This document shows, one piece after another, positions 22,096 through 27,332 of a stretch of 64,000 nucleotides of DNA. The notes beneath the pieces are model-generated. The model did no database searches. It was given only the letters and a program-made list of their open reading frames with translations, and was not told where the DNA came from. A program made the translations under genes and the position numbers. The number at the start of each line of letters is the position of its first letter. The first letter of the stretch is position 1. Source of the stretch: Petrimonas sp. IBARAKI (GTDB lineage: Bacteria > Bacteroidota > Bacteroidia > Bacteroidales > Dysgonomonadaceae); the NCBI GenBank assembly GCA_002356435.2, contig AP018040.2, positions 2,976,001-3,040,000 on the forward strand, given 5' to 3'.

Positions 22096-25000
22096 ATGGT
22101 ATCAGACATCTCTCAATTGCTCCGGATCCTTGAGGTTCACCCCAACGTAGCGGCCGCAAACAAATTGCTGAAAGAGGTAAAAACACTTTTAGTGAAAGGT
22201 TTGCATGGTTCTTCGCGTGCACTTTTCTCGGCAACGCTTTATAACAAACAACCGCGGACCTTTCTTTTTATCCTCAATGACCTGGAAACGGCAGGATATT
22301 TTTATCACGACGTTACACAGATCCTGGGAACGAAAGACATCCTTTTCTTTCCTTCGGCTTACAAACGTGCTGCCAAGTACGGACAGATGGATCCGGCAAA
22401 CGAAATTCTCCGCACCGAAGTGTTGAGTCGTTTACAAAACAACGACTCTTCGTTGTTCATCGTATCTTACCCCGATGCGCTGGCAGAAAAAACGGTTTCT
22501 CAGGCAACACTTCAGCAAAACACCCTGAGGTTGTCGGTGGGTGAGCAGGTGGATTCCGGTTTTGTATCGGAAGTACTGGACTCTTACGGTTTCACCGCTG
22601 TGGATTACGTTTACGAACCCGGACAGTATGCCACTCGCGGAAGTATATTGGACGTCTTTTCCTTTTCGAACGAATTGCCTTACCGTATCGATTTCTTTGG
22701 AGACGAGGTGGAAACCATTCGCAGCTTTGAAGTTGAAAGCCAACTTTCTGTAGAGAAGTTCGTCGAAATCCGTATCGTCCCTGAATTCGGTAAAAGTAAG
22801 CACAAAAACGCATCGCTTTTTGACTCTGTTCCCCGGGAGACGATTATCGCGATTGAAGATATCCGCTGGATAGAAAGCCGCGTTGAAAGTATCTGCAACG
22901 ATGAGCTGAGCATTGACATCAGTAACGAGGAACTGGTTAAAGCCGACCTGCTCACGAAAGAAGAGTTCCTGTCATCTATTGAACCGTTCACACACCTGCG
23001 GTTCGATACGAAACTGACGGACACCCCAGATGCCATCTTGCAGTTTCAAACAACTCCGCAACCGTTGTTTCAAAAGAATTTTGATTTGATTTCGGACTCG
23101 CTCAACCAGTTCCTGCAAAACAACTATACCCTTTACATCCTCAGCGACAGTGAAAAACAGCACCAGCGTCTGAACACCATCTTCCACGACAGGGGCGACG
23201 ATATTCCGTTCACGCCTGTAAACAAAACATTGCACGAAGGGTTTTCGGACGAATCGCTGAAAATCTGCTGCTTTACGGATCATCAGATTTTCAACCGGTT
23301 CCACAAATACAACCTGAAATCCGAGAAGGCCCGCTCCGGAAAGATTGCACTCACATTAAAGGAGCTTAACCAGCTTCAACAAGGCGACTTTGTGGTTCAC
23401 CTGGATCACGGAATCGGAAAATTTGCGGGACTGGTCCGCCTTCGTATCGGAGAAACGGTGCAGGAGGTGATCAAGCTAACCTACCTTAACAACGATTCGG
23501 TATTCGTTTCCATCCATTCCCTTCATAAGATATCCAAATACAAAGGCAAAGAAGGAGAGTCTCCGCAACTCAACAAATTAGGCTCCGGTGCGTGGGAAAG
23601 GACTAAGGAAAGAACTAAAACAAAAATAAAGGATATCGCCCGCGACCTTATAAAGTTATACGCCCAGCGACAGAACGAAAAGGGATTCTCCTATTCAAAA
23701 GACACCTACCTGCAAACTGAACTGGAAGCTTCGTTCATGTATGAAGATACGCCCGATCAGCTAAAAGCCACGCAAGAAATCAAGCTGGATATGGAAAGTG
23801 ACCATCCGATGGACAGGTTGGTATGCGGCGACGTGGGCTTCGGCAAGACGGAAGTAGCCGTACGTGCGGCTTTCAAAGCGGCCACCGATGGCAAACAAAC
23901 GGCCGTTTTGGTACCGACCACCGTGCTGGCCACCCAGCATTACAAAACGTTCAGCGGAAGATTGTCCGATCTTCCCGTAAAAGTGGATTACCTGAGCCGC
24001 GCCCGCTCGGCGAAAGAACAAAAACAAATCCTCTCCGAGTTGAAAGAAGGCAAGATAGACATCATCATCGGCACTCACCGGTTGGTAGGGAAAGACATTC
24101 AGTTCAACGACCTGGGCCTGTTGATTATAGATGAAGAACAAAAGTTCGGCGTATCCACCAAAGAGAAACTGAAACAGCTGAAAAGCAATATCGACACGCT
24201 CACGATGACCGCTACCCCTATTCCCAGAACGTTGCAGTTTTCGCTAATGGGGTCTCGCGATTTTTCCACCATAAACACGCCTCCCCCCAACCGTTATCCT
24301 GTACAAACGGAGGTTCACACGTTCGACGTGGAGGTGATGAAAGAGGCCATCAACTACGAGGTGAGCCGGAACGGGCAGGTTTTTATCGTCAACAACCGCA
24401 TACAGAACATTTACGAAATGGAAGCGCTGCTCAGGCGCGAGGTCAAAGACATCCGTATTGCGGTAGCTCACGGACAGATGGATCCGAAAAAACTGGAAGC
24501 CATTATTGCCGATTTTCTGAATCACGAGTACGATGTGCTGCTGGCAACCACCATTATCGAATCGGGAATTGATATGCCCAACGTGAACACTATTATCGTT
24601 ATCAACGCTCAAAACTTTGGGCTGAGCGACCTCCACCAACTTCGCGGACGCGTGGGAAGGAGTAACCGCAAAGCGTTCTGTTACCTGATGGCTCCACCGC
24701 TCTACACACTCAGCACCGATTCCCGGCGAAGGTTACAGGCTATTGAGAATTTCTCCGAGCTGGGCAGCGGCATTCACATCGCGATGCAGGACCTGGATAT
24801 CCGGGGTGCCGGTAACCTGTTGGGTGCAGAACAAAGCGGATTTATTGCCGACCTGGGCTACGAGACGTACCAGAAGATCCTGGCAGAAGCCGTACAGGAA
24901 TTGCGCAAGGAAGAGTTTACCGAACTCTATCGCGAACAACAGGAACTGAAGGCCGAAAGGGAAGAGGATTTTGTCGACGACGTGACCGTAGAGAGTGACC

Positions 25001-25422
25001 TGGAGCTGATGTTTCCGGTAGCCTATATCCCCAACGATGCCGAACGGGTAGCCATGTACCGCGAGTTGGACAACATGGAATCCGAGACACAAATCATGGA
25101 TTTTACCCAACGGCTGGAAGACCGTTTTGGTAAAATCCCCGCACAAGGGAAAGAGCTTATCCGTATCGTGCGGCTTCGCCGGCTTGCTAAATCACTAGGT
25201 ATCGAAAAGATTTTCCTGAAGACCGGCCGAATGACCCTCTTCCTTATCTCCGATGCCGAATCGCCTTATTACCGCTCAACGGCTTTCGACAAACTGCTAA
25301 ACTTCATCCAGACTCATCCGCGGGACTGCCAGCTACGGGAAGCCGGCAAAAAACGATCGGTAATCATCCGGAATGTAAAAACCGTTGAGGCAGCGATTGC
25401 GCTAATACAATCCATCCACTGA
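22096..25422 (+). CDS. mfd: Transcription-repair coupling factor Mfd (1108 aa)
   Basis: Mfd displaces RNA polymerase stalled at DNA damage and recruits UvrA. The domains in order are a UvrB-like N-terminal part ([40 protein letters not shown]), the polymerase-interacting CarD-like domain ([17 protein letters not shown]) and the RecG-like translocase. The translocase has Walker [12 protein letters not shown] near residues 577-587, DEEQKFG near 678, TATPIPRTL, and [17 protein letters not shown]. The C-terminal TRCF domain follows. The length is usual for Bacteroidetes. Its last 21 bases overlap the 3' end of the convergent cysK. Confidence 0.98.
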
Positions 25423-26310
25423 CAAGTACCGTTCTCCCGTATCGTAATTGAACGTCAATATCCGCTTTTTCTCGGTCAGTTGCGACACTTTCTGCGCCAC
25501 GGCAGCAATAGCCGCACCGGTGGAGATCCCTCCGAGAATACTCTCCTCTCGTGCTAGCCTACGGGCGTATATAAAGGCGTCTTCGTTGGATACTTTGATG
25601 ACACTGTCGAGCACGTTCAGGTCCAACGTGTCGGGGATAAAGCCAGCTCCGATGCCTTGAATGGTATGCGGGCCGGGACTATCGCCGGAAATAACGGGAG
25701 AAGCCGCCGGCTCAACGGCAATGACCTGAATGGAAGGAAACTTCTTTTTTAGCTCTCTCCCCACTCCTGTAATGTGGCCACCGGTACCTACCCCCGTAAT
25801 CAGGTAATCAAACCCTTCGGGAAAATCATCGAGTACCTCTTTTGCCGTCTTCTCTGCATGAACCGTTACATTGGCTTGGTTTTGAAACTGTTGTGGGATC
25901 CAGGATCCCGGAATTCCGGATTGAAGCTCCAGGGCTTTCTCAATGGCACCTTTCATCCCTTTCTCCCGGGGTGTCAACACCAGTTCCGAGCCAAAAAGCC
26001 CGATCAGGCGACGTCGTTCAACCGACATGGATTCGGGCATCACGATAATGACCTTATACCCTTTGTAGGCACCGACAAAAGAAAGCCCTACACCGGTATT
26101 TCCCGATGTGGGTTCTATAATGGTTCCTCCGGGCTTCAAGATCCCTTTTTTCTCCGCATCTTCAATCATTGCCAGAGCAATACGATCTTTGATACTCCCT
26201 ACTGGATTTTGTCTTTCCAGTTTAATCCATACTTCGTGATGGGGGAACAACTTGCTCAAACGTACGTGAGGTGTATTCCCGATTGATTCCAGAATGTTGT
26301 TAAATCTCAT
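25402..26310 (-). CDS. cysK: Cysteine synthase A (O-acetylserine sulfhydrylase, 302 aa)
   Basis: It makes L-cysteine from O-acetylserine and sulfide, with pyridoxal phosphate. The PLP lysine is Lys41 in [11 protein letters not shown]. The substrate loop PTSGNTG, the phosphate-binding [12 protein letters not shown] and the closing [13 protein letters not shown] are all present. The length is standard. It is the second gene of an operon, 44 bases after the serine acetyltransferase that makes its substrate. Both lie behind a leader with a run of five Cys codons, which suggests control by cysteine supply. The 3' end overlaps the convergent mfd by 21 bases. Confidence 0.97.
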
Positions 26311-26354: not shown

Positions 26355-27176
26355 TTAAATGATAAAGTCAAGAGGCTGAACAAAGTTTTTTACCGTTCTG
26401 ATCTTAACATCCACCGAGTTGTAAACCAGCGAATAGGGGATAACGCTTTGTGTCAACCACGCACCGCCACCAATGGTTGAGTCGTGCCCGATAACCGTCT
26501 CCCCTCCCAAAAGGGTAGCATTGGCATAAATAACCACATTGTCTTCCACTGTGGGATGCCGTTTTACATCCGACAGTTTTTTTTCCACGTAGAGCGCTCC
26601 CAGCGTTACGCCCTGATAGATTTTCACGTTGTCGCCTATTTCGGCAGTCTCACCAATCACAATCCCAGTACCGTGATCCAAAAATAAATTCTTGCCGATT
26701 TTAGCAGCGGGATGGATATCGATTCCGACTTTTGAGTGAGCATATTCACCAAAAAGGCGCGGGATAAGAGGTACACCCAACACATGCAGTTCGTGCGCCA
26801 TCCGGTAGACACTCAGTGCAAAGAAACCGGGATAAGTGATGATTACTTCTTCGAGTGACTTGGCTGCCGGATCATTTTTGAGGTAGCATTTTGCATCTTC
26901 GTACAAAAGATCCTGAATTTCAGGAAACCGGCTGAAGAATTTATACACAGCTTCGTCTGCAAACTGCTGATCCTTCAAGCGGGCAATGTTTACACTCAAT
27001 TCCCGGGCGCAATCCTTTAGCTTTTCGTGAATGTCACCCATATCAATCCGTTCGCAGACAGGGAACATTTGCGAAAAGAGCGTTTTAACCACTTCTTCCA
27101 GCTTACACTTGTCAATGGGGATTTGTACGGGCAACGGTTGAAACTTATTGATAAGTTCAAAAGTCTTTTTTATCAT
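26355..27176 (-). CDS. cysE: Serine O-acetyltransferase (273 aa)
   Basis: It acetylates L-serine with acetyl-CoA, the first step of cysteine synthesis. An N-terminal helical region is followed by the left-handed beta-helix with [24 protein letters not shown] (catalytic His in the DIHP and DHGTG motifs) and [15 protein letters not shown], then a C-terminal tail. The overall form matches the EpsC/SAT group. The tail ends in Ile-Ile (PLDFII). In characterised acetyltransferases a C-terminal Ile inserts into the CysK active site to form the cysteine synthase complex, so the same docking is plausible here. It is first in the operon with cysK. The ~150-base leader contains the polycysteine reading frame at 27264-27305. 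Confidence 0.96.
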
Positions 27177-27207
27177 AAGAGGAGTTTTTTTAATGAATAA
27201 TTTTTAT

Positions 27208-27217
27208 TTGTTTGCTG
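27208..27217 (-). promoter_or_regulatory. Segment able to pair with the Cys codons
   Basis: The RNA reads CAGCAAACAA here, about 30 bases before the cysE ATG. It can pair over nine positions (one bulged A) with the Cys-codon run of the leader peptide. This is inference from sequence complementarity only. Confidence 0.35.
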
Positions 27218-27243: not shown

Positions 27244-27263
27244 AATCGATTGGGAGGTGGTGA

Positions 27264-27305
27264 TCAACAACAGCAACAACAAATATGCATTCGCTTCTTA
27301 TTCAT
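27264..27305 (-). CDS. Polycysteine leader peptide upstream of cysE-cysK (13 aa)
   Basis: The minus strand encodes MNKKRMHICCCCC and a stop: five consecutive Cys codons (TGT TGT TGC TGT TGT) directly before TGA. It begins about 13 bases after the predicted transcription start, and a -7 box lies at 27325-27332. It is the only start-to-stop frame between that promoter and the cysE gene 87 bases further on. Peptides that concentrate codons for the end product are classic attenuation leaders (trp, his, leu operons), and polycysteine leaders are known as cysteine attenuators in mycobacteria. Here the downstream operon makes cysteine, so scarcity of Cys-tRNA would stall the ribosome on this run. 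Translation itself is not shown. A GTT/TGT-type low-complexity accident is the alternative. Confidence 0.72.
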   Translation of the reverse strand: MNKKRMHICCCCC

Positions 27306-27324
27306 TTTTTACGTTAGGAAGTAG

Positions 27325-27332
27325 CAAAGATA
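27325..27332 (-). promoter_or_regulatory. Putative -7 box for the cysE-cysK operon
   Basis: The minus strand reads TATCTTTG, 19 bases before the leader-peptide ATG and ~150 bases before cysE, so the leader would be transcribed. Confidence 0.55.

Follow-up and report, generated by a model that had tools for sequence, protein, structure and literature searches.

A conserved polycysteine leader ahead of cysE-cysK in Petrimonas, very likely a cysteine-sensing attenuator

Upstream of the cysteine biosynthesis operon cysE-cysK of Petrimonas sp. IBARAKI, we identified a short open reading frame (ORF) that ends in a run of Cys codons directly before its stop. The window analyzed here is the whole stretch of 64,000 nt surrounding this element (contig AP018040.2, positions 2,976,001 to 3,040,000). 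The element is very likely a cysteine-sensing, ribosome-mediated attenuator of cysE-cysK, with leader translation, ribosome stalling, and the effect on cysE being inferred in the absence of expression data. A Cys run is kept before cysE in relatives, the signal is specific to Cys, a promoter box precedes the leader, no intrinsic terminator was found behind it, and the leader RNA has a predicted pairing with the region ahead of cysE in most genera of the family. The leader in the window represents one of two layouts that recur in our survey of cysE upstream regions. Cysteine attenuators in Bacteroidota, apparently undescribed, are likely to be the new element here, while the principle of ribosome-mediated attenuation is already known.

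Leader, promoter box, and conservation in the family

The short leader ORF sits between a promoter, recognized by its motif only, and the first structural gene of the operon (Table 1), and its regulatory codons (Cys) match the end product of cysE-cysK. The TAnnTTTG motif is a promoter element of Bacteroidota, and a transcript start about 13 nt ahead of the leader ATG is predicted from this box, without RNA data. An earlier, sequence-only reading of the window had proposed a 13-codon frame behind a TAnnTTTG box, 87 nt from cysE (start at 27176) and followed by cysK; this arrangement held, and the transcription start remains a box-based prediction. The cysE protein scored above the NCBIfam cut-off of NF041874 (serine O-acetyltransferase EpsC; 151.3 vs. 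150) and below that of TIGR01172 (cysE; 164 vs. 210.65). At its 3′ end, cysK overlaps by 21 nt (window 25402-25422) a convergent plus-strand ORF (22096-25422), which we take to be mfd by its looks.

Table 1 Coordinates of the leader, the operon genes, and the predicted RNA helices in the window.
Feature	Position	Strand	Basis or remark
TAnnTTTG box, TATCTTTG	27325..27332	minus	Read directly; box start 27 nt before leader ATG
Leader ORF, MNKKRMHICCCCC + TGA, 13 codons	27264..27305	minus	Kept in relatives
Leader start codon, ATG	27305-27303	minus	
Leader stop codon, TGA	27266-27264	minus	
Five tandem Cys codons, TGT TGT TGC TGT TGT, presumed sensor	27267..27281	minus	Direct reading
cysE, serine O-acetyltransferase, first in the operon	26355..27176	minus	NCBIfam
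cysK, cysteine synthase, next after cysE	25402..26310	minus	NCBIfam TIGR01139, above cut-off
Helix H1, 5′ arm, AAUGAAUAA, contains leader start codon	27298..27306	minus	MFE fold, shuffles, swap test
Helix H1, 3′ arm, UUAUUCAUU, 15-23 nt ahead of cysE ATG	27192..27200	minus	MFE fold, shuffles, swap test
Helix H2, 5′ arm, on first Cys codons	27271..27285	minus	MFE fold; pairing test
Helix H2, 3′ arm, CAGCAAACAAAUA	27205..27217	minus	MFE fold
Hairpin H3, final Cys codon and stop with GAUUAACA, C-rich loop	27240..27269	minus	MFE fold

Across the genome (3.69 Mb, single contig), five Cys codons followed by TRR matched twice; the other match ends in TGG, and the leader is the sole occurrence of TGY(x5) plus a stop. 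Three Cys codons plus a stop occur at 29 places in the same genome, most of them under longer ORFs, and none of the places inspected proved to be a second leader ahead of a cysteine gene.

The best 20 named relatives with the same gene arrangement were Dysgonomonadaceae or unclassified Bacteroidales. Among 80 cysE loci, the closest carried the leaders MNKVRMHICCCCC, MNKKRMHICCCCC, and MNKSRMHICCCCC, and remoter ones carried MKYKRMHNYCCCCCCC, MKMDTYRLYCCGCLCC, and MKPIFLHIFYVYCC. For the family itself, 20 upstream regions were picked from 87 genomes with cysE; this choice was non-random and favored rarer genera and genomes with a match to the pattern. A leader was present in 15 of these regions, adding the peptides MNKKRMRVCCCCCCC, MNKRRMHICCCCC, MVNSILDICCCCCCCCC, MEQFFLHICCYCCC, and MEQKSLHICLYCCCC, and none was found in the remaining five sampled (L122, L129-L132). 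Since the regions were hand-picked, 15/20 should not be read as a frequency. The leader is kept within the genus, and is diverged yet still Cys-rich in six more Dysgonomonadaceae genera, with runs of up to nine Cys. Peptides of different genera have little in common except Cys, and TGT and TGC are swapped between relatives with Cys itself remaining constant. The sequence-only reading had proposed to look for a Cys-rich short frame upstream of cysE in relatives, a check that was passed both in the genus and in other Dysgonomonadaceae. For the majority of Proteiniphilum- and Fermentimonas-like loci, a preceding coding gene ends near cysE and a Cys leader was not found.

A TAnnTTTG box was found 25-28 nt ahead of the leader ATG in 12 of 14 Dysgonomonadaceae rows (near-duplicates counted), and before 21 of 42 leaders overall, compared to 3.2 expected from shuffles. 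Four Cys codons plus a stop, tried as a family-wide search pattern, matched mostly within coding genes; this pattern was rejected as useful only beside cysE.

Two architectures of Cys leaders upstream of cysE

We next pooled 228 upstream regions, comprising the 80 cysE loci, the 20 family regions, a phylum sample of 60 (regions fetched for 60 of 82 genomes with cysE), and an order sample of 68 (used of 125 genomes). One region that was too short was dropped, along with any sharing a 30-mer with a kept region, which left 197 distinct regions. Leaders were defined by an ATG start, ≤45 codons, and ≥3 Cys within five residues, a rule that the short-Cys leaders MKPIFLHIFYVYCC (L120, L121) fail, so that these were scored as leaderless regions. 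Overall, Cys leaders were observed in 35 regions vs. 0.8 expected from dinucleotide shuffles. When the same rule was applied to other residues, counts were near expectation (e.g., Leu, 29 vs. 24.5; Ser, 13 vs. 10.8), the highest non-Cys ratios being those of Met (2 vs. 0.25), Ala (7 vs. 2.8), and Val (9 vs. 3.6). A stricter earlier test, which required three consecutive Cys in 148 regions, yielded 23 observed vs. 0.12 expected. Remoter cysE copies (L238-L262), with E values of about 1e-58 to 1e-51, had no leader under the rule (0/25). In an Rfam search of 24 loci, including the region from the window (L002), no match reached the gathering score, and the best match in the window (E 0.73, a Dictyostelium family) was ascribed to chance.

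These leaders fall into two architectures. An intrinsic terminator lies between leader and cysE for 21 of the 35 leaders, compared to 7 of 162 leaderless regions (Fisher p 1.6e-13, to be taken as a guide only because the rows are related), and two of these seven regions (L149, L230) contain shorter Cys leaders. The number of codons past the last tandem Cys separated the two groups without overlap: 6-19 in the 21 terminator leaders, and 0-2 in the 14 terminator-free ones. The terminator-free group includes seven Dysgonomonadaceae, five members of one family from another class (f15), and two other Bacteroidales. Among the terminator leaders are entries titled Saprospiraceae, Chitinophagales, or Bacteroidales, along with members of many unnamed families of Bacteroidales and of two further families of the class. 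Two contigs titled Chloroflexi or Thermoflexus (L048, L049) also belong here. In all 16 leader loci inspected, from both groups, the ORF next to cysE was cysK-like as judged by eye from its sequence.

For the terminator class, we analyzed 23 leaders, i.e., the 21 above plus L149 and L230. The antiterminator arm, taken as the best partner of the terminator 5′ arm, starts 9-18 nt past the last tandem Cys codon in all 23, and the terminator begins 23-43 nt downstream of the leader stop. Antiterminator pairing beat shuffles at 0.05 in 9 of the 23, with a combined p of 1e-9 that covers some close relatives (L048/L049, L064/L065/L073). Shared 6-mers were no more frequent in this class than in shuffles (best, 6/23; shuffled maxima, mean 5.5 and maximum 8). 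This anatomy is that of a classical attenuator, and we infer, from sequence alone, that the terminator class operates by textbook transcription attenuation. In the window, no intrinsic terminator was found (0 candidates), and there is consequently no terminator-antiterminator pair at the leader. One close relative (L006) had a single weak terminator candidate (-14.2 kcal/mol, four T), and was later excluded as a near-duplicate.

Two individual cases were noted in this survey. The two contigs titled Chloroflexi or Thermoflexus carry a Cys leader and a terminator, along with cysK in L048. Their cysE is Bacteroidota-like, and the label is possibly wrong because this protein is 54-55% identical to that of the window; they may represent mislabelled bins or a horizontal transfer of the entire regulated operon. 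Separately, one region of the phylum sample (L147) has a terminator ahead of cysE and a frame with CYC instead of CC, which may be a weaker Cys leader that escapes the rule.

Predicted pairing between the leader and the pre-cysE stretch

In the predicted fold of the leader RNA in the window (H1 to H3, Table 1), the 3′ arm of H1 lies upstream of the cysE ATG without covering it. Across the family, the model predicts pairing of the leader start and Cys codons with the pre-cysE stretch in the majority of genera, with exceptions. The start helix scored p ≤ 0.05 in 9 of 15 family leaders and 4 of 7 genera when compared with 1000 shuffles, and so did the full leader-spacer duplex; six of the nine significant leaders belong to the genus of the window. 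The same shuffle test gave no support for the start helix in genera g8 and g2 (L118, L120, L121) or in L124, and the start helix missed 0.05 in L126 and L128. For the Cys codons, the pairing test returned p 0.076 in the species of the window and p ≤ 0.05 in 4 of 7 family members. The pairing often survives letter changes in relatives, as for GAAAUGGAA with UUCCAUUUC in L127.

Arm swaps over the seven genera provided a complementary evaluation: 57 of 5040 re-pairings equalled or exceeded the true start helix, and 21 of 5040 did so for the true pairing of start plus Cys codons. Leaving out the two failing genera, a subset selected post hoc, both comparisons gave 2/120. RNAalifold predicted no pairs on the MAFFT alignment, in which the 3′ arms are misaligned. 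Outside Dysgonomonadaceae, pairing of the terminal Cys codons with the spacer was not significant at 0.05 in any of nine leaders.

Finally, a partition-function model was used in which a ribosome-sized mask was placed on the leader. The mask opened the region from -40 to +3 of cysE by ≥0.15 in 11 of 15 cases, and masks from +42 or later opened it mostly by ≤0.1. The modelled mean unpaired value was 0.44 for the free RNA, 0.60 with the ribosome stalled, and 0.54 with the ribosome at the stop. Because the stop-codon mask also opens the region, the fold model alone cannot separate a stall from normal termination. The model nonetheless predicts that the leader governs access to the pre-cysE stretch.

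Proposed mechanism, alternatives, and known systems

In the proposed mechanism, a ribosome would initiate on the leader and meet the tandem Cys codons, which extend up to the stop, thereby gauging Cys-tRNA. With ample Cys-tRNA, the ribosome would complete the leader and depart, and H1 to H3 would form; the leader start and Cys codons would then pair 15-35 nt ahead of the cysE start and hide the landing site, leaving little cysE-cysK translation. With scarce Cys-tRNA, the ribosome would stall at the Cys run, the pairing would stay open, and cysE would be translated. Members of the phylum Bacteroidota are not known to use Shine-Dalgarno pairing. Because no intrinsic terminator was found, the output should be either translational or Rho-dependent rather than trp-like. 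Control of cysE translation is the leading candidate for the output step, at about even odds, and an output by some other or mixed route appears unlikely.

The most serious rival leaves cysteine sensing unchanged and places the output in Rho-dependent termination, i.e., a finished leader would expose a C-rich, G-poor spacer to Rho. In this possible scheme, a ribosome stalled at the terminal Cys codons would shield the start of the spacer, and the Rho-dependent and translational outputs may coexist. The tnaC system is a known case of Rho-dependent termination masked by a stalled ribosome, and a Rho-dependent step has been proposed for mycobacterial cys leaders (PMC1262725). Between leader stop and cysE, the spacers of ten family leaders average C 0.26 and G 0.09 (C/G 2.8), compared to C 0.18 and G 0.16 (C/G 1.1) across 198 other upstream regions, each taken over its last 80 nt (p 1.3e-5), a comparison set that still contains some leader regions and near-duplicates. 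In addition, the Cys run stops at the leader stop, beside a C-rich loop. The composition of the spacer, together with a C-rich stretch that begins at the end of the Cys run, makes Rho a serious rival. However, the conserved helix arms also lie in the spacer and would be superfluous for a naked Rho site, and composition by itself cannot demonstrate a Rho site.

The loop of H3 (window 27249-27262, minus strand), viewed alongside relatives L114-L119, is C-rich within the genus (e.g., ACCACCUCCC), and its letters are not kept outside the genus. These letters resemble the 3′ end of 16S rRNA, and the C-rich loop may be a Rho site or a product of chance.

Two further explanations are very unlikely. 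The first is that the Cys-rich peptide is itself active, for example in metal or thiol binding, rather than serving as a codon sensor. Five to nine neighboring cysteines could bind metal; however, peptides of different genera share little beyond Cys, the only feature shared across the phylum is a Cys run ahead of cysE-cysK, and in 21 leaders the tail encodes the antiterminator arm. The second is that the TGTTGTTG stretch matters as RNA structure alone, untranslated. This stretch does pair with downstream RNA in the Dysgonomonadaceae fold predictions, but TGT and TGC vary among relatives while Cys is kept, in-frame Cys runs behind an ATG recur with unrelated flanks and a different architecture, and runs of other amino acids are near expectation.

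A chance run in a low-complexity UTR is all but excluded: four Cys codons plus a stop often match inside coding genes of the family, which makes the bare pattern weak, but the position ahead of cysE, the conservation, and the excess over shuffles refute chance, barring the frames in relatives being untranslated.

Returning to cysteine-sensing attenuation as the preferred reading, most of the initial claims were borne out. That five Cys codons and a stop are improbable by chance held, given their uniqueness in the genome, their conservation, and the survey counts. The proposal of a cysteine-sensing attenuator is supported by the relatives and by the classical attenuator anatomy found before the same operon in remoter Bacteroidota. 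Ribosome stalling at low Cys-tRNA, with a resulting rise in expression, is still an inference, and the route from stalling to output had been left unstated.

A bolder reading, which we advance tentatively and would not yet favor, is that cysteine attenuation of cysE-cysK is common in Bacteroidota, with two interchangeable outputs set by the position of the Cys run. Under its rule, a run followed by a tail of 6-19 codons would go with an intrinsic terminator, and a run at the stop with none. The Dysgonomonadaceae form would be translational, its long-range helix masking the cysE landing site as well as the start codon of the leader, without Shine-Dalgarno pairing.

For Mycobacterium, Propionibacterium acnes, and Bifidobacterium longum cbs, terminator-free leaders with a Cys run were predicted in 2005 (PMC1262725), and the mycobacterial ones are reported to be cysteine-responsive attenuators (Canestrari 2020). 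Mycobacterial and window leaders share a short ORF, a Cys run near the stop, a cysteine operon, and the lack of an intrinsic terminator (PMC1262725). They belong to different phyla without evident shared sequence, although no sequence comparison was made. The mycobacterial ORFs are leaderless according to the title of Canestrari 2020, whereas the window ATG lies about 13 nt past the predicted start, for which there are no transcript data; and only in the window is the leader start predicted by the model to pair with the pre-cysE stretch. Attenuators of the trp and his type likewise place a leader peptide with codons for the pathway product ahead of the operon. An antiterminator and a terminator, as in that type, occur in relatives from Bacteroidales, Saprospiraceae, Chitinophagales, and other groups; the window element differs by having no intrinsic terminator. 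In Rhodobacterales, the uORFC-8-2 motif before cysS has a leader ORF with Cys codons in tandem, for which ribosome-mediated attenuation is proposed (PMC8632094); unlike the window leader, it involves cysS, alphaproteobacteria, a terminator, and two Cys codons around positions 14-15 (PMC8632094).

Within the phylum of the window, a Flavobacterium psychrophilum transcriptome gave leader-peptide clues ahead of unspecified amino-acid operons (PMC9723704), and leader-like sORFs were reported in long 5′ UTRs of B. thetaiotaomicron (PMC7366714). We know of no cysteine operon named in either study, and overlap is not excluded (PMC9723704, PMC7366714). In the literature searched, which mostly did not extend to subscription journals, we saw no report of Cys leaders ahead of cysE in Bacteroidota. 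The initial suggestion that such leaders are little described in Bacteroidetes fits this literature, with the Flavobacterium clues as a caveat (PMC9723704).

Control of cysteine synthesis is poorly known in Bacteroidota, which include many sulfur-handling anaerobes of digesters and guts, and the leader provides a concrete, testable sensor. The link between Cys-run position and terminator is strict (21 vs. 14 leaders, no exception), and shifts between transcriptional and non-terminator attenuators can therefore be studied. The terminator-free form also offers a test case for RNA-pairing control of translation in a phylum without Shine-Dalgarno initiation.

One further frame was observed in the same genome, outside the window (L282:1640-1982, near 2494600-2495000). 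It contains four consecutive Cys codons (...HETSCCCCRLSVFSRMCL and a stop) and recurs in two close genomes (at 92% DNA identity), without being found further out. A hairpin immediately precedes its Cys codons, and the frame lies behind a TACCTTTG box, about 235 nt ahead of a SusC-like receptor gene. It is possibly a second Cys leader, placed ahead of an outer-membrane transporter.
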